Source: Desulfobulbus sp. (lineage in GTDB: Bacteria > Desulfobacterota > Desulfobulbia > Desulfobulbales > Desulfobulbaceae). Taken from it: a stretch of 8,417 nt of DNA. Below the pieces are notes generated by a model, which saw only the letters and a program-made list of their open reading frames with translations, had not been told where the DNA came from and did no database searches. The DNA is taken from assembly GCA_028684915.1 (NCBI GenBank), contig JAQUEZ010000256.1, positions 1-8,417 on the forward strand, written 5' to 3'. The position numbers and the translations under genes were made by a program. This document shows positions 61-8,055 of the stretch, piece by piece (position 1 is the stretch's first letter; each line of letters begins with the position of its first letter).

Positions 61-124
61 CCTCGTCATTTGGTGTGGATTTGATCGTTTTATACATCAA
101 ATCCACACCAAATGACGAGGAGCC
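61..124. mobile_element. Palindromic pair of ISL3-type insertion sequence ends (IS remnant or MITE-like)
   Basis: Bases 61-85 and 96-120 form a perfect 25-bp inverted repeat around a 10-bp centre. Read on the minus strand from 124, the right arm begins GGCTCCTCG and ends GTGGATTTGA. The end of the transposase-bearing element at the other side of the window (from 8297, plus strand) begins GGCTCTTCG and contains GTGGATTTGA at the same offset, about 20 of 29 positions being equal. A GGCTCTT-like tip is, from memory, typical of the ISL3 family. Both tips point outward with almost nothing between them, so this looks like an element whose interior has been lost, or a miniature derivative. The left tip (GGTTTC before CCTCGTC) is degenerate. 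Confidence 0.55.
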
Positions 125-602
125 CTAAAAACTCGATCATTTCAGCGACGTCTTTGGTGCGAGGGTCAATCCTTGTCAACAAAACCAGCACATCGAGATC
201 AGGATTGAAATCACGGGCAAGCTCAACAACTGTGAGAAGATCGGTCATGGCTGCAGCATCAAGGTTAGATGCACCGACCGGCACAATCGCCCTTTGTGCG
301 AGCAGCAAAGCTGACCGTAATCCAACGGAATCACGCCCTCCGGCATCAATGACAACATCCTGAAAACCACCTGCGAGCTGTTTCCCTTCGGTGAGAATGG
401 CTTTACCCGCGAGACAAACAGTTGTGGGGCTTGGGGTGTAAGCAGGATTATCGCGCCGCCAAGCGGCCCAACTTGCCGCACTGGCTTGAGGATCTCCATC
501 GATCAATAACGTCTTGCCATGACGAGAAAGCATGGTCGCAAGGTGAACAGCAGTTGTGGTTTTACCCACGCCTCCTTTCGTATTCACTACTGCATAGATC
601 AT
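90..602 (-). CDS. parA: ParA-family partition ATPase, C-terminally truncated
   Basis: This is a deviant-Walker ATPase of the ParA/MinD group, the motor that distributes plasmids (or other cargo) to daughter cells. The start at 602 is chosen because GGGAG lies just upstream (607-612) and the protein then opens with the family's usual MIYAVVNTKGGVGKTTTA. That stretch holds the KGGVGKTT Walker A signature with both lysines. LLIDGDPQAS is the A'/switch I motif and DVVIDAGG the Walker B region; LTRIDPRTKDVAEM follows as in small plasmid ParAs. The last dozen codons, after MIEFL, are encoded by the IS-like palindrome at 61-124, so roughly 40 C-terminal residues of the usual 205-215 are replaced. 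It is probably inactive or altered. No parB follows in the window. Confidence 0.85.
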   Translation of the reverse strand: MIYAVVNTKGGVGKTTTAVHLATMLSRHGKTLLIDGDPQASAASWAAWRRDNPAYTPSPTTVCLAGKAILTEGKQLAGGFQDVVIDAGGRDSVGLRSALLLAQRAIVPVGASNLDAAAMTDLLTVVELARDFNPDLDVLVLLTRIDPRTKDVAEMIEFLGLLVIWCGFDV

Positions 603-604
603 TC

Positions 605-613
605 TCTTTCTCC
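605..613 (-). promoter_or_regulatory. Ribosome binding site deciding the parA start
   Basis: On the minus strand GGGAGAAAG lies immediately upstream of the ATG at 602-600. The in-frame ATG at 665 would add 21 residues unlike the ParA family and has no comparable Shine-Dalgarno. Confidence 0.6.
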
Positions 614-661
614 CTAATAAAAATAGATTACGCTTCGGTAACTCATCTGGAATCGATTTAA

Positions 662-690
662 TCAATACACACCTTGATATGATTTTTCAA
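662..690 (-). promoter_or_regulatory. Predicted parA promoter
   Basis: The minus strand shows TTGAAA (685-690) and TATTGA (662-667) with a 17-bp spacer, a fair sigma-70 match about 60 bp before the parA start. The -35 box sits inside the ATGAT/ATCAT palindrome at 679-694, so a protein binding there would block transcription. Repression is an inference; only the overlap is seen. Confidence 0.45.
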
Positions 691-1380: not shown

Positions 1381-1428
1381 GTCCGGTGATGACCGGATGG
1401 ACAATTGCCGGTACGCGTCGGAATTGTC
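1378..1428. promoter_or_regulatory. Nested palindromes upstream of umuD, possible SOS operator
   Basis: TCCGGT-GATG-ACCGGA (1382-1397) is a perfect 16-bp dyad. It is enclosed by ATTGTCC (1378-1384) and GGACAAT (1399-1405). A second dyad, GACAATT (1400-1406) with AATTGTC (1422-1428), overlaps the first. umuDC operons are normally repressed by LexA, whose box differs among bacterial groups. No E. coli-type CTGT-N8-ACAG box is seen, so one of these dyads is the best candidate operator. Confidence 0.45.
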
Positions 1429-1500
1429 TCATCAGTCATGTCGTTAGCGGCATCGTTGCATGTGGGAAATTTAAAATATACCAGAATTTTTGGAGTGACC

Positions 1501-1941
1501 ATGAACCAACGTATATCTAATGTTGAATTCGTCGGATATCCGGATGAGTTCATTTCGCAACCCATCCCTCTGGTCCACGCTGGGGTATCCGCCGGTTTTC
1601 CGTCACCGGCTGATGATTACATTGACCGCACGCTCGACCTCAACGAACTGTTGGTCACCAATCCTCCTGCCACTTTTTTTGTGCGCGTGGATGGAGACTC
1701 GATGATTGAAGCAGGTATTCACCCTGGGGACATATTGTCCGTTGACCGTTCTGAAGAGGCTTGTGACGGTTCCATAGTCATAGCGATGATAAATGGTGAA
1801 ATGACCGTTAAAGAGTTATCGCTTTATCCCAAATTGCGCCTCATCGCTCACAATGAGCACTACCCCCCTATTGAACTGAGCGAACATGATGATTTTGAAA
1901 TTTTCGGCAGGGTAAAGGGGCTGGTCAGGGTCTTCAAGTAA
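1501..1941 (+). CDS. umuD: UmuD, self-cleaving subunit of DNA polymerase V
   Basis: This LexA-like S24 peptidase cleaves itself when RecA filaments form; the product UmuD' dimer joins UmuC to make pol V. The start at 1501 is chosen because GGAG lies at 1492-1495 and the protein is then 146 residues, close to the E. coli length of 139; an upstream ATG at 1405 would add 32 unrelated residues. The cleavage site is Ala31-Gly32 in [12 protein letters not shown], matching the Cys-Gly site of E. coli UmuD and the Ala-Gly site of LexA and MucA. The catalytic pair is Ser67 (GDSM) and Lys104 (MTVKEL). The stop codon overlaps the umuC start by one base, so the two are translationally coupled. The upstream dyads suggest SOS control. 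Confidence 0.95.
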
Positions 1942-3185
1942 TGTTTGCCCTGGTTGACTGCAACAACTTCTATGCAACCTGCGAGACCATTTTTCGGCCA
2001 TCGCTCCGGGGAAAGCCTGTGGTGGTGCTCTCCAACAATGACGGCTGTGTTGTTGCAAGATCCGCCGAAGCCAAAGCGCTGGGTCTTAAAATGGGCGCCC
2101 CTGCCTTTCAGATCAAAGAAGAGATCGAACGGCACGGTATAGAGGTCTTTTCTTCCAACTACACGCTCTATGCCGATATGTCGCATCGGGTGATGAGCAT
2201 CCTGCAGACGCTTGCCCCTGCGATTGAAATCTATTCGATCGATGAAGCGTTTGTTGATGTCCGGGGTGTTCGTGATTTGCATGCTTTTGGTGTTACGGTT
2301 CGCAAGACGATCCGGCAATGGACCGGTATTACCGTTGCAGTTGGTATTGCACCGACAAAGACACTCGCCAAACTCGCCAACTATGGTGCCAAGAAATATC
2401 TAGGTACAGGCGGGGTTGTTGTATTGACTGATGTGGAACGGCAGCGCAAGTTGATGAGCATTGCACCGGTTGATGAGGTCTGGGGGGTAGGCCGGAAGCT
2501 GCACCGGAAGCTCAATGCTTTGGGTATCCAAACCGCGCTTGATCTTGCTCAAAGTGATATTCAGGATATTCGCCGCCGGTTTAGCGTCGTGTTGGCCAGG
2601 ACGGTGTCAGAACTTCAGGGGACATCTTGCCTTGAATTGGAGCAAGTGCCCTCCCCTAAAAAACAGATAGTCAGTTCGCGTTCATTCGGTCAGCGAATAA
2701 CAGAAATCGACGAGATGCGGCAGGCGGTCAGTGAGTTTACAGAACGGGCGTGCGGGAAGTTGCGGAGAGAAAAGCAGTATGCGCGAGCGCTCAGCGTCTT
2801 CATTCAAACAAACCCTTTTGCGCAGCATCGTCCTGGATATGCCGATTGTGCCCATGGCACCCTGCAGGGTCACACCAACGACAGTTTTCAGTTTTGCCGC
2901 CTTGCTCAACGACTTTTGGCGCAGATATGGCGTGATGGCTTCGAGTACAATAAAGCCGGTATTATGCTCGGTGATTTTTCTCAGTCTACACGTCGGCAAA
3001 CCACTCTTTTTGAAAAGCCTGTCAGAGACAACAGCAAAATTATGGCAGCCATTGATCGCATCAACAGCACAGTGGGCACGATAAAATTAGCGGCGACAGG
3101 AGTAGATCAAAAGTGGGCCATGCGGAGGGACCGGCTTTCACCGGCGTACACAACACGATGGCAGGATATTCCGCTGGTGAGATAA
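1941..3185 (+). CDS. umuC: UmuC, Y-family catalytic subunit of error-prone DNA polymerase V
   Basis: This translesion polymerase copies damaged templates at the price of mutations, acting with UmuD' and RecA during the SOS response. Its 414 residues compare with 422 in E. coli, and all landmarks are present. Metal-binding Asp6 lies in [11 protein letters not shown], the steric-gate region follows it, and Asp101-Glu102 sit in [10 protein letters not shown]. The helix-hairpin-helix around 175-200 contains [20 protein letters not shown] beta-clamp motif lies at 353-357, where E. coli has QLNLF. The C-terminal DUF4113 segment runs from about 366 to the end ([17 protein letters not shown]). It appears intact. 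The ATG shares one base with the umuD stop (TAATG) and has no separate strong ribosome site. Mobile umuDC homologues (mucAB, rumAB, impCAB) are common on plasmids and integrative elements. Confidence 0.96.
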
Positions 3186-3205
3186 TCGGCGGCATTGTGG
3201 TTTTT

Positions 3206-3234
3206 AAATCATTTTATATCATAAAAATGATTTT
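3206..3234. repeat. AT-rich inverted repeat between convergent umuC and the AcrVA2-like gene
   Basis: AAATCATTTT (3206-3215) and AAAATGATTT (3224-3233) are perfect 10-bp arms, and the centre holds TATCATAAAAATGATTTT (3217-3234), identical to 699-716. Both flanking genes end here, so it may work as a bidirectional weak terminator, or as a protein site that is not a promoter operator. Confidence 0.5.
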
Positions 3235-3241
3235 ATTATGC

Positions 3242-4324
3242 TCAATTAACAGGGTGGATAGCTGCAGGTAACTCATCAAGATAGTCAACATTGATAGGTA
3301 TCGGGGGCAACCATTTCAGAATACTTTCCGTCCTTCCTTCACCAACACGATAGGTATGCCAGTGTGCCCGACGAAGGTGCGGACTGAGCCGTGACCCTTC
3401 GGACTCGGCCAATTGATTGCTTGTCGATTGTTGTGGCGCTTGGGAGGCCGTTTTTGCGGCCCGGAGTGCCGAGCCAAGTCTCACCCCAACATCCCAGTTC
3501 TGTGGTCGGTCTGGAGGAAACAACCGCCACCCTTTTTTAGTTTTTTGGGGTCGGGGATACGTTGGCCGATCAGCAATCCCAAAATCAGCGTTAGCCGTAC
3601 AAAGATAGAGAACCAGATTGATGACTGGCTCCAGTGATCGAGCAAGCTCTTGAGAAATATTGGGCATAGACTGGCCTGGCTCCCCTACGCTTTGCTTTAT
3701 TGCTTCTTCCAGCATGGCCGCAATGGCCAAATCAAGGGTTGGTTCGGTCAAGTGGAGAGGAAGGGCAACGAGGTTAAAGGATTGAGCGGCTGCACCAAAC
3801 TTCTGAGGGGCAAAATTACGCGGTGCTTCCTCGTCCAAATCCAACACCAGCCTTAATTCGGGCCGTTCCGTTTTAACATCCCACTCCAAATGAACAAAGA
3901 CACCAGCAAGTTTGTTTTTGAACCACTGCAAACCCGGCGTCTCAAGATAAACGCACCACTCCGGGAGATGATACAAGACCTCAACCGGCAATTTATCGAT
4001 GGACGTGTCAACAATGGAAGCAAAGAGGTCAGGATCAAATCTATAAATTCCTTGGCCAGTTCTCCAGGTAGCAAGAGCGCCTAATATGCCGATGTCCAAT
4101 ACCTTTTCAATCCCAAGCTGCCCGGCTTCAACAAACTGCTGAATAATATCTGCCGAAACACTCAAAGGGCAATAACACCAATCCGGCCAGCTTGGCGCAC
4201 CATTCTTACCCCTCTTCTGACGGGCTTCATCATAAAACTTCCAGATATCAGGGTAGGTTTTTCCGAGATTCCGCAAGTGCTCCCTTGGGCGGCACTGTTT
4301 TGATCTGTTGGGATGGTTTGCCAT
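3242..4324 (-). CDS. AcrVA2-family protein (anti-CRISPR against type V-A / Cas12a)
   Basis: By eye this 360-residue protein aligns with my recollection of AcrVA2 of Moraxella bovoculi (about 322 residues). Matching blocks in order are WRTGQGIYRFD (87-97), LPEWCVYLET (120-129), the NLVLYLCTANADF segment (236-248), RLG at 282-284, and PHLRRAHWHTY (315-325) with a trailing KW near 338. AcrVA2 is known to lower Cas12a production by triggering loss of its mRNA as the nascent polypeptide emerges, and homologues occur widely on plasmids. The N-terminal 60 residues, rich in basic residues and ending WPDWCYCPL, are longer than in AcrVA2. GGAG stands about 14 bases before the only in-frame ATG. The gene ends the minus-strand operon running from 4973. 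Homology is well supported; activity and target are inferred. No CRISPR or cas gene is in the window. Confidence 0.82.
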   Translation of the reverse strand: MANHPNRSKQCRPREHLRNLGKTYPDIWKFYDEARQKRGKNGAPSWPDWCYCPLSVSADIIQQFVEAGQLGIEKVLDIGILGALATWRTGQGIYRFDPDLFASIVDTSIDKLPVEVLYHLPEWCVYLETPGLQWFKNKLAGVFVHLEWDVKTERPELRLVLDLDEEAPRNFAPQKFGAAAQSFNLVALPLHLTEPTLDLAIAAMLEEAIKQSVGEPGQSMPNISQELARSLEPVINLVLYLCTANADFGIADRPTYPRPQKTKKGWRLFPPDRPQNWDVGVRLGSALRAAKTASQAPQQSTSNQLAESEGSRLSPHLRRAHWHTYRVGEGRTESILKWLPPIPINVDYLDELPAAIHPVN

Positions 4325-4395: not shown

Positions 4396-4566
4396 TTAGA
4401 GAGCGAGGATGTCGACGTCCGAACCCTCAGAAGGAAAGAGGCCCGGTGATAGCGACAATTGTGGGAGCTGCTGACGGTAAATATAAAATCGTCCGTTTAG
4501 CTTCAAACTGTCAGTTAAATCAAAAACAGGCTTTAAGCTGACTGCGACCGCCGCGTCCGGAGTCAA
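4396..4566 (-). CDS. Small hypothetical protein, translationally coupled
   Basis: I do not recognise this short protein. A TTG at 4566-4564 overlaps the TGA of the upstream gene (TTGA), with GGAAGAGG a few bases before it, giving 56 residues beginning LTPDAAVAVSLKPVFDLTD (the first residue would be Met). An in-frame ATG at 4584 would give 62 residues and a 22-base overlap. The composition is plausibly protein-like, with alternating hydrophobic residues (LNGRFYIYRQQLPQL) and an acidic end, DVDILAL. There is no signal peptide or membrane segment. It lies between the DUF7673-type gene and the AcrVA2-like gene, and the 71-base gap after it contains no other ORF. It could still be a chance frame in a spacer. 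Confidence 0.4.
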   Translation of the reverse strand: MTPDAAVAVSLKPVFDLTDSLKLNGRFYIYRQQLPQLSLSPGLFPSEGSDVDILAL

Positions 4567-4973
4567 TATCCTCTTCCACCACATTGAGGACAGGCGTTCC
4601 GCGTGTGATTTGTTTCATCGTTCATGTCTTCGTAGATCAGGCCAGAACCGTGACACAAAGAGCAATCAGGAAGGCCTCTATTGGCAACATGATACCGTTC
4701 CCACCTCTTCCACAGTTCGCGGAAGAGGCGATCGCCATCTTCTAGTAAATTTTGCGGTTCGGTTCCGAGTTCGACCCTGCCACGGATCACGGCGAGAGCT
4801 GCTTGATAATATCCACGATCCAAATTGCACAGATCGACGATATTCAACTGGAAGTCATTCCCATTGTAAGCGCTTAAAAGCACTTGCGCGGCAACTCGAC
4901 TTCCACCGGTATCACCCTGAGCAAGTGCTGCCAGCTTAAGGATCGCGGTTGAATACTCCTTTTCTGCTGTCAT
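4563..4973 (-). CDS. DUF7673-type protein with C-terminal CxxC zinc knuckle
   Basis: The 136-residue protein has an N-terminal helical part (about 5-65) resembling DUF7673, a domain known from plasmid and phage proteins: GDTGGSRVAAQVLLSAYNG followed by DLCNLDRGYYQAAL. A central charged helix (RLFRELWKRWERYH) leads to a DnaJ-like zinc site with Cys104 and Cys107 (CSLCHGSG) and Cys128 and Cys131 (CPQCGGRG). Such a knuckle usually binds one zinc ion and contacts protein or nucleic acid. The start at 4973 has AGGGGGG about five bases upstream. It is the first gene of the operon that ends with the AcrVA2-like gene. Function is unknown; the family name is from memory and was not searched. Confidence 0.75.
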   Translation of the reverse strand: MTAEKEYSTAILKLAALAQGDTGGSRVAAQVLLSAYNGNDFQLNIVDLCNLDRGYYQAALAVIRGRVELGTEPQNLLEDGDRLFRELWKRWERYHVANRGLPDCSLCHGSGLIYEDMNDETNHTRNACPQCGGRGY

Positions 4974-5301: not shown

Positions 5302-5610
5302 TTAGTATTCGTCCGGCATCAGGATGGTCGTGACCTGTCTATCCGCTTCAGTGATGATCCATAAACAGTTTTCACCGTAACCCTGAGCCGGTTTATTCGG
5401 ATCGATAGCGTAGGCGGACAAAATCCGGAAGCCTTGTTGAGTTGCGAGGTTGTTTTCTTCGGCATCGTCCTCACACACGTTTCCCCATTCTCCGCGCTGA
5501 TGAAGATCCAAACATTCCCAGACTCTCGGGCTTGTAACTTTCTCCCTTGCTCCAACTGTAATAAGAAGTCGGCCCAACTGAAAAGGGTTGAAGGCGGTTT
5601 GTGCTTCCAT
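5302..5610 (-). CDS. Small conserved plasmid protein of unknown function
   Basis: This 102-residue cytoplasmic protein belongs, by recollection, to a family of 100-120 residue proteins frequent on proteobacterial plasmids, sometimes mislabelled as restriction-modification subunits. Its landmarks are GRLLITVGA near the N-terminus, then HQRGEWGNVCEDDAEENN (37-54), FRILSAYAID (61-70), and the C-terminal LWIITEADRQVTTILMPDEY. The last block, strand-like and ending in acidic-aromatic residues, is the most typical. No catalytic motif, membrane segment or signal peptide is seen. AAAGGAG lies six bases before ATG and sits inside a hairpin. The gene has its own AT-rich block, promoter, structured leader and terminator. 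The upstream cassette is almost the same as that of the methylase gene, implying coordinated expression. Confidence 0.85.
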   Translation of the reverse strand: MEAQTAFNPFQLGRLLITVGAREKVTSPRVWECLDLHQRGEWGNVCEDDAEENNLATQQGFRILSAYAIDPNKPAQGYGENCLWIITEADRQVTTILMPDEY

Positions 5611-5679
5611 GAATATCTCCTTTCGAGATTTCTGCCCCTGGTCCGCGAGGCGCCGGTCTCAAGGTTTCCCCCTTGAATT
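5611..5679 (-). ncRNA. Structured 5' leader, copy A
   Basis: On the minus strand the leader folds into TCAAGG/CCTTGA (5676-5671 with 5664-5659), then GCCTC/GGGGC with one G-U pair (5651-5647 with 5638-5634), then ATCTC-GAAAG-GAGAT (5629-5615). The last hairpin contains the Shine-Dalgarno AAAGGAG. Copy B before the methylase conserves all three stems and the sequence between them with a few changes, mainly in the first loop and the spacers. CCUUG of stem 1 can alternatively pair with CAGGG of stem 2 in both copies. A cis-regulatory RNA is likely; the ligand or trigger is unknown. Confidence 0.6.
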
Positions 5680-5685
5680 GACTGA

Positions 5686-5758
5686 ATATTACATGATTTC
5701 ATAATATAAATAAATCATTTTTTATCATTTATATTATATTTTTATCATTAAATATAAC
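5686..5758 (-). promoter_or_regulatory. Promoter and AT-rich operator block, copy A
   Basis: A minus-strand TAATAT (5691-5686) preceded by TG serves as a -10 element; no good -35 is seen. Upstream, 5709-5742 is identical over 34 bp to 7611-7644 and contains spaced AATGAT repeats. Arms ATAATATAAAT and ATTTATATTAT flank the central AATGAT copies. Confidence 0.6.
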
Positions 5759-5908: not shown

Positions 5909-7510
5909 TTAAGCAGCTTTCAGCAGCAATGGCTGTGTCCAAGTGCTTTCAAAGACAGCCTGGCCGAGGTTCTTGGTGTATTCAACCGCTCCGCCGATCT
6001 CGAAGGCGTCAACCACCGTTTGCTCTTCGGGGCTCATGTCGTGATAGGATTTTTGGCCATAATTCATCGGGAGCCATTCTCTCCCGAGACAGGCCGCTAC
6101 ATTGAATCTTCGCAGAATATTCTCATCGTTGAACGTCAGGTGCAGCGTTCCTTTTTTGTAAGCAGTCAGGGTAAAATAAGTGCTCTTGATCCCTCTATTC
6201 TGGCCACGGGCAAACGCTCTGTTGATGGAGTCGGAAATGCTGAGATAATGCGGGCTTCCATCAAAGTAGTTCATCACGATGTCAATGTCGCGCAAACTGG
6301 CATCAACTTGGTGATCGAGTTTCCATTCGGTCCTATCCATCCAGTCAAGGAAAGGCCCGTTGCCATGGCCACCATACACCGGAATAATCACCTTCTTGCC
6401 AACCCTGAAAGCATCATTTGTCTTCCATCCATTAAAGTAATGAATGTTGTCGGTGAAAACACCGTCATCCCAGCAATGTTTGATTGTGAATAAATCAAAT
6501 ACCTCAAGCACGGCTTTGGTCAGCGTGTCGTTGTATCCTGAAATCAAGTTCAATAAAAATCCACGAATATTGTTTTCTGTAAAGTCCATATTGGTGCGGT
6601 CTTTCACCATTTCCTCAAACTCATTCAACCGTTTCTTTGTCATACGTTTTTTGACCTCAGGAAGATCAAGAGTTTTCCGCCAAAAGTCGTGCCGGATACG
6701 TCGGATCGTGGTGTTGGTTGTTCCTTGCATCAACTTGGTTAAGGTGTCAGCTGTCCGAAGATACTTGTCGGGCTCTTTGTTTAGGCCAATATATTGCCCG
6801 ACCTTTTTATAATTTTGGTAATAGCCGACGATGGTCTCCATGGACAAAGCCACAATCTGATTAAACTCCGCGACTAATTCCTCAATATGCTTTCCATTTG
6901 CCACCTCATAATTTTCATCAACCTTGTCGTCAAACTCGGAAACCTTATCACCGCATCCGGCAAATAGGTCTTCCTCAACCTTCCGCTCGATCACAATATT
7001 AACCAGGACAACCTCGACGTTTGTCTTGCGTTCCGCGTTCTGAAAAGCCCCTGGGAGATATTCTGTCTCGGCGCCAAGCTCTTCCAATTTTTTTGCGAGC
7101 TCCTGCCTGCTCCTGGTGTGGGTATTACGCAAGGTTTCAGCATTCAACAAGCAGACGATCTGTCCGCTGTACATAATATCAATGGCCTTGAGAAGGTGCT
7201 TGTCACCATCCCCAAAAGGGGGATTCATCAAGATCAGGTCAAACTTATCCGGCCCATTGAAAGCCAGGAAATCATGGTCTATGACGGCAATGTTTTTGCC
7301 CCGCAAAGTTGCCCGTAGGTCGGGATCAATTTCAATGGCGGAAAACTTCCGTTTCGTGCCGTGGCGATCTTTAGTTTCAGAATAAACTTCTATGAGATCC
7401 GCTTTTCCAGCGGACGGTTCAAGAATATATTCAGGACATCCTTTAACTTTTTGGGCCATTTTCCGGCCCAGTTCCCTGGGTGTTGGGTAAAATGTGCTGT
7501 TATTGAACAT
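5909..7510 (-). CDS. DUF4942 DNA N6-adenine methyltransferase
   Basis: This 533-residue protein is a SAM-dependent DNA methylase fused to DUF4942, an arrangement known from phages and plasmids. The N-terminal Rossmann domain (about 1-180) shows motif I LEPSAGKADL (30-39), motif II AIEID (58-62), an acidic motif III around Asp80, and the catalytic motif IV NPPF (96-99), diagnostic of amino-methylases acting on adenine. DUF4942 covers about 210-500, with aromatic-rich stretches such as HYFNGWKTND and PHYLSISDSIN that may recognise DNA. The start has AAAGGAG eight bases upstream within a hairpin. No restriction endonuclease is adjacent, so it is probably an orphan methylase that could shield the element from host restriction or alter gene regulation. 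Target sequence cannot be predicted here. Confidence 0.9.
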   Translation of the reverse strand: MFNNSTFYPTPRELGRKMAQKVKGCPEYILEPSAGKADLIEVYSETKDRHGTKRKFSAIEIDPDLRATLRGKNIAVIDHDFLAFNGPDKFDLILMNPPFGDGDKHLLKAIDIMYSGQIVCLLNAETLRNTHTRSRQELAKKLEELGAETEYLPGAFQNAERKTNVEVVLVNIVIERKVEEDLFAGCGDKVSEFDDKVDENYEVANGKHIEELVAEFNQIVALSMETIVGYYQNYKKVGQYIGLNKEPDKYLRTADTLTKLMQGTTNTTIRRIRHDFWRKTLDLPEVKKRMTKKRLNEFEEMVKDRTNMDFTENNIRGFLLNLISGYNDTLTKAVLEVFDLFTIKHCWDDGVFTDNIHYFNGWKTNDAFRVGKKVIIPVYGGHGNGPFLDWMDRTEWKLDHQVDASLRDIDIVMNYFDGSPHYLSISDSINRAFARGQNRGIKSTYFTLTAYKKGTLHLTFNDENILRRFNVAACLGREWLPMNYGQKSYHDMSPEEQTVVDAFEIGGAVEYTKNLGQAVFESTWTQPLLLKAA

Positions 7511-7581
7511 TGTTTTATCTCCTTTCGAGATTTGTGCCCCTGTTCCGCGAGGCTGCCGGTTTCAAGGTTGTCCCTTGAGTT
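7511..7581 (-). ncRNA. Structured 5' leader, copy B
   Basis: This is the counterpart of the leader at 5611-5679. Stem 1 is TCAAGG/CCTTGA (7578-7573 with 7567-7562), stem 2 is GCCTC/GGGGC (7553-7549 with 7540-7536), and the Shine-Dalgarno hairpin ATCTC-GAAAG-GAGAT is at 7531-7517. Differences from copy A fall in the first loop (GACAA versus GGGAAA), the base before stem 2 and the spacer before ATG. Confidence 0.6.
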
Positions 7582-7587
7582 GATATA

Positions 7588-7658
7588 ATATTACACGATT
7601 TAATATAATTAATAAATCATTTTTTATCATTTATATTATATTTTAATCATTAAAATAG
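7588..7658 (-). promoter_or_regulatory. Promoter and AT-rich operator block, copy B
   Basis: A minus-strand TAATAT (7593-7588), again preceded by TG, is the probable -10. The block 7611-7644 equals 5709-5742 base for base. Outside the block the two copies drift, which suggests selection on, or recent copying of, the shared part. Confidence 0.6.
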
Positions 7659-7659
7659 G

Positions 7660-8055
7660 GCGAAAGACAAAGAGGCACTCTGAACAACTTATGAAAAGAT
7701 GGAGGTCTAGGTTGTGTTGTTATTATTTTATTGGAGTCAGGCAAGTGTGCTGGAGCTGCCCGTAGAAACGGAACAGGAGTAATAATCACAACGCCATCAA
7801 TTGACCTGGTACAGAAAAGTGGGCGTAAGGTTCCGTGGTTCAAAACTTATCGAACACAGATTATTTTGATACGTTGTTTTTGACATGAGTTTTGAAACAC
7901 TTTTTTTTAAAACAGCCAGCTTTTTACGGTTGGGTATTTTGTGTCTCAAATAGGATCGTTTCTGAGGCATTATTTTTAGACGTGACCAGCCCTAACCGGT
8001 TCGTGCGAACAGGAGAGGGTTTTACGCCTCCAACAAAGATATAAGCTTAACAACG
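7660..8055. other. Intergenic region without a supported gene
   Basis: About 400 bases with no frame I would call coding; the longest minus-strand frame (7643-7843) is rich in Pro and Arg, overlaps the AT-rich promoter block and has no ribosome site. Small local dyads occur, such as GTTCGTGCGAAC near 8000-8011 and GGAG/CTCC around 8012-8033, just before the terminator at 8056. They may belong to a short plus-strand RNA. Confidence 0.45.

Follow-up and report, generated by a model that had tools for sequence, protein, structure and literature searches.

The question raised by this locus is whether a gene that resembles the one for the anti-CRISPR protein AcrVA2 encodes an inhibitor of Cas12a, or a protein that silences something else. 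The gene lies on contig JAQUEZ010000256.1 of Desulfobulbus sp. (hereafter the window, meaning the whole 8,417-nt stretch that was analysed), and the first-pass annotation had taken it for an AcrVA2-like anti-CRISPR gene with an enlarged N-terminus on a plasmid-like element. We find that it is a true, if unremarkable, new addition to a family comprising both AcrVA2 and FinQ, a plasmid protein that inhibits F fertility, and we lean slightly towards the view that its product silences one competitor mRNA. The gene and the parts of it that matter here are the following, with conservation scored on a 152-row alignment:

3242..4324, minus strand: AcrVA2/FinQ-family gene, ATG start, 360 amino acids (aa)
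4298..4324, minus strand: leader peptide MANHPNRSK at the N-terminus of the family gene, found also on unrelated mobile-element proteins
4034..4066, minus strand: conserved block 1, residues 87-97, with W87, R88 and Y94 conserved in 96-100% of rows
3938..3967, minus strand: conserved block 2, residues 120-129, with P121, W123 and Y126
3356..3379, minus strand: conserved block 3, residues 316-323, H-x-R-R-x-H-W-H, 91-99% per column

Homology to AcrVA2 is borne out over most of the protein: residues 10-347 match the profile phrog_6160 (E 7.7e-47), the AcrVA2 entry of the PDB matches at E 7.7e-32, the protein shows the AcrVA2 fold, and the tag PF26125 is found on all 120 relatives listed. The open reading frame (ORF) and its three ordered blocks, which the annotation had placed exactly, are real, and the near-invariant W-R...Y, P-x-W..Y and H-x-R-R-x-H-W-H motifs are all present. 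Block 3 is identical in the window protein, Moraxella AcrVA2 and RefSeq FinQ, with deviations in the distant Acinetobacter and Lactobacillus-phage rows. The enlarged N-terminus dissolves on alignment: window residue 83 aligns with AcrVA2 residue 76, the listed relatives are 320-367 aa long, and only the leader of about 10 residues differs.

FinQ proves related both in sequence and in predicted fold (hhalign E 5.7e-35, 24-26% identity). Within the H-x-R-R-x-H-W-H stretch, the FinQ sequence given by UniProt shows local differences from that at NCBI, a discrepancy that may have hidden the link to AcrVA2. AcrVA2 is described as reading the LSKT motif at the N-terminus of nascent Cas12a, thereby triggering translation-dependent mRNA decay (PMC13131331), while FinQ of R820a is reviewed as ending F tra transcription at multiple sites, independently of Rho (PMC8744291, citing Ham and Skurray 1989). 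Both proteins are encoded by mobile elements and take away a rival system's message, and the many end points attributed to FinQ may reflect co-translational decay.

From the observed homology, fold, conserved residues and mobile setting we infer the rest of the explanation. Like AcrVA2, the window protein would read a short peptide of a particular protein during its synthesis, and recognition would lead to the loss of that protein's mRNA; rather than Cas12a, the victim would more probably be some other defence system or a gene carried by a competing mobile element. The reported cutting short of the F tra transcript by FinQ at many sites would then count as a previous glimpse of this activity.

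Several points weigh against this reading. Identity to AcrVA2 is only about 21%, and in a tree of 152 rows, built by a quick method, the window protein falls in a leader-bearing clade of 17 rows (support 98), apart from Moraxella AcrVA2 and FinQ and at 5.0 and 5.1 changes per column from them, respectively; its function may therefore have drifted. The first ~80 residues of FinQ cannot be aligned at the sequence level, and of the 651 plasmid records only 98 reach 80% query coverage. The 1989 work on FinQ was, as reported in PMC8744291, interpreted as transcription termination and not as mRNA decay. Finally, LSKT was found in none of the 33 F tra/trb N-termini scanned (first 40 residues), with a loose match in two.

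Another explanation is that the protein lowers rival transcripts by stopping transcription, as first described for FinQ, with no reading of nascent peptides. The relatedness of FinQ and its reported Rho-independent, multi-site termination speak for it. However, AcrVA2, which has the same fold, is described as needing both translation and the LSKT peptide (PMC13131331), and loss of mRNA during translation could mimic multiple end points; we regard this explanation as doubtful. About as doubtful is the proposal that the protein binds a finished partner protein, or regulates genes of its own element, mRNA loss being peculiar to AcrVA2 and FinQ. The large distance in the tree is consistent with this, as are the crystal structure 7ci2, in which AcrVA2 is bound to an internal Cas12a peptide (residues 618-634; PMC13131331), and the position of the family gene downstream of leader-bearing genes of its element in eight independent loci. 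Against it, the window protein, AcrVA2 and FinQ have their conserved residues in common, which suggests a shared core activity.

As to Cas12a itself, the profile TIGR04330 found no match in the genomes holding relatives (0 of 50 and 0 of 24, hence 0 of 74), although absence is not proof because many of these are draft metagenome-assembled genomes. The 74 genomes stand behind 74 of 78 loci from a scan that kept the best 80; the four that remain are additional contigs from organisms already counted. As a positive control, the profile gave matches in 2 of 150 genomes of one comparison family, and in the presumed host phylum, Desulfobacterota, one of 297 genomes scored above the cut-off and two at E<=0.001. 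A working anti-CRISPR against Cas12a in some hosts of the element, which homology and fold would allow and the rare Cas12a of the phylum would give a target, is very unlikely, given the lack of a Cas12a match in the relatives' genomes and a Moraxella AcrVA2 branch that groups with FinQ and not with the window (Shimodaira-Hasegawa-like approximate likelihood ratio test, SH-aLRT, 85, at a point where long branches meet). The homology to AcrVA2 stands; the anti-CRISPR label goes further than the homology shows. The annotation's further suggestion of a different target or a broader silencer is favoured, because the family includes FinQ and those 74 genomes gave no Cas12a match, but not for the reasons it gave, an enlarged N-terminus and a partner gene. 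It is more likely that AcrVA2/FinQ proteins are general weapons that switch off competitor genes than that they are inhibitors of one CRISPR enzyme.

The distribution of the NHPNRS leader is wider than the AcrVA2/FinQ family. Within the family, 41 of the 120 listed relatives carry HP[NSK]R[SGKA] in their first 40 residues, as M-x-NHPNRS variants, the others starting directly at an R-P-R motif or with another short leader; on the tree it is present in 32 of 152 rows and requires at least 11 state changes. Scanning viral contigs for M-x-NHPNR followed by an AG serine gave 107 stretches, and the TCN serine variant 44. Among the 151 matches of the two scans there are 126 ORFs with M-x-NHPNRS at the start and a length of 55 aa or more, and the 113 distinct ones form 52 blastp clusters, an upper bound on the number of unrelated families because the proteins are short; the largest cluster, of 40, is helix-turn-helix (HTH)-like by sequence. 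A control with the same codons reordered returned 25 stretches, but a single phage protein, found repeatedly, accounts for 19 of these. In the phage ORFs the leader codons vary at every degenerate site, which indicates selection on the peptide. None of the 107 loci of the first scan contained an AcrVA2/FinQ-family gene, which counts against a direct link between the leader and AcrVA2-like proteins, and for three spellings of the motif the matches listed in PubMed Central (PMC) were all papers on magnetic resonance imaging. That M-x-NHPNRS could be a nascent-chain address, read during translation by family members of the tagged clade, strikes us as very improbable. Were it so, the protein would hold down its own message along with the mRNAs of other early mobile-element genes that bear the tag, in the way that AcrVA2 reads the Cas12a N-terminus, and mobile elements would share a peptide code for shutting off each other's early genes.

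Two relatives' loci show the leader on a nearby gene. In locus L095 a second ORF, of 316 aa and with the same MNHPNRS leader (10114-11064, minus strand), lies some 1.1 kb away from the family gene, which is on the opposite strand. In locus L081 a small gene with the NHPNRS leader, HTH-like by its sequence (7777-7995), sits directly upstream of the family gene (8001-8975), an arrangement that we take to resemble acr-aca pairs.

Upstream of the family gene, two genes of the window are preceded by a structured RNA leader:

5302..5610, minus strand: 102-aa ORF, upstream of the family gene and on the same strand
5611..5660, minus strand: hairpin leader of the 102-aa ORF, a short stem around a GCGCCTCG loop, then CAGGGGC, then a Shine-Dalgarno site
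5909..7510, minus strand: DUF4942 / N6-adenine methyltransferase-like gene (PF13708, E 1e-33)
7511..7562, minus strand: second hairpin leader, before the DUF4942 gene, with loop GCAGCCTCG, then CAGGGGC and a Shine-Dalgarno site

Both lie in a 139-nt repeat (83%). The stem is likely real, since it shows two-sided covariation in 151 distinct ORF-leading instances with a full loop, collected by tag, family and RNA pattern. Counting the commonest standard pair types only, the first of the three inner pairs is C-G in 98, G-C in 29, U-G in 7 and U-A in 2 (paired in 137 of 151); the second is C-G in 101, G-C in 19, A-U in 7 and U-A in 4 (135 of 151); and the third is C-G in 70, G-C in 13, A-U in 7 and U-A in 3 (96 of 151). 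The loop could pair with GGGGC to form a pseudoknot, although both sides were fixed by the search pattern. AGGGGC also occurs within 30 nt upstream of 44 of the 113 tagged phage ORFs. Neither the window (E<=1) nor ten tag loci (gathering score) gave a family of this kind in Rfam 15, and the PMC matches listed for GCGCCTCG concern other subjects by title.

This structured leader recurs at family loci. Counting the window, there are 159 such loci, in which 10 copies of the full element are spread over 8 independent groups; every copy precedes the family gene in the same orientation and has a Shine-Dalgarno-like site. A slightly narrower reversed motif occurs in none of these loci, and a looser pattern adds 12 matches in those lacking the full element. 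With side and strand left to chance, eight of eight upstream and co-oriented would have a probability of about 1.5e-5, with the reservation that the flanks are not all equal.

The remaining genes of the window are these:

90-665, minus strand: ParA-type ATPase
889-1161: HU-type DNA-binding protein
1405-3185: UmuD and UmuC
4563..4973, minus strand: DUF7673 protein with CxxC pairs, the upstream neighbour of the family gene (Pfam PF24720, E 4e-21)

The plasmid-like setting proposed earlier is borne out, and a fair guess is that the window comes from a plasmid, or an element akin to one, whose host is of Desulfobacterota type. The best plasmid match of the DUF4942 gene is in Desulfosarcina ovata (47.5%) and that of one further neighbour in Desulfocapsa (64.9% over 69% of the query); for UmuC the nearest is Pantoea (55.7%). 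The DUF7673 gene, which the first-pass annotation had read as a zinc-knuckle partner, is absent from all 158 relative loci. Indeed, no constant partner was seen across these loci and the window (135 groups), the commonest neighbour clusters appearing in 11 and 10 groups. On a Thioflavicoccus mobilis plasmid the family gene follows brxL of a bacteriophage exclusion (BREX) system, with one short ORF between. Within the window, AT-rich intergenic repeats of about 42 nt (680-721, 1341-1382, 3198-3239, 5704-5745 and 7606-7647) may serve the element as operators or promoters. Close to the contig end, the ParA frame stops at an inverted repeat (61-120) whose 25-bp arms match perfectly across a 10-nt spacer; this could have arisen in assembly.

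What makes this locus valuable is the connection that it draws between AcrVA2 and FinQ, together with the peptide and RNA leaders to which it led. If the two proteins act alike, a fertility-inhibition factor known since 1989 gains a structure and a testable mechanism, and an apparent anti-CRISPR oddity becomes one branch of a large family, present on hundreds of conjugative plasmids, that silences chosen mRNAs. The F tra genes in Escherichia coli would then offer well-controlled targets for mRNA destruction through nascent peptides, and caution would be due before every AcrVA2 homologue is named an anti-CRISPR.

Among known systems, AcrVA2 of Moraxella phages (PDB 7CI1/7CI2) shares H-x-R-R-x-H-W-H with the window protein, but identity is low, the clades are separate, the 74 genomes of relatives gave no Cas12a match, and it is the window protein that bears the NHPNRS leader. 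ORF43 of Shewanella phage vB_SbaS_Y11, published as a putative AcrVA2, a name drawn from homology and fold and not from a functional assay (PMC10846135), is likewise a family member on a mobile element; it groups with Moraxella AcrVA2 (support 99), together with an Erwinia phage protein and FinQ on the same branch, whereas the window protein does not join Moraxella AcrVA2 to the exclusion of other branches. FinQ of IncI1 plasmids shares family, plasmid carriage and conserved residues with the window protein, but it lacks the leader and adjoins trbA in the IncI transfer region, whereas the window gene stands beside DUF7673, UmuDC and DUF4942 genes. Although TTC5-type tubulin autoregulation is eukaryotic, and we claim no homology with it, it offers a parallel in manner of working: there, too, the N-terminal peptide of a growing chain is read by a factor, with loss of the mRNA (PMC10403363).
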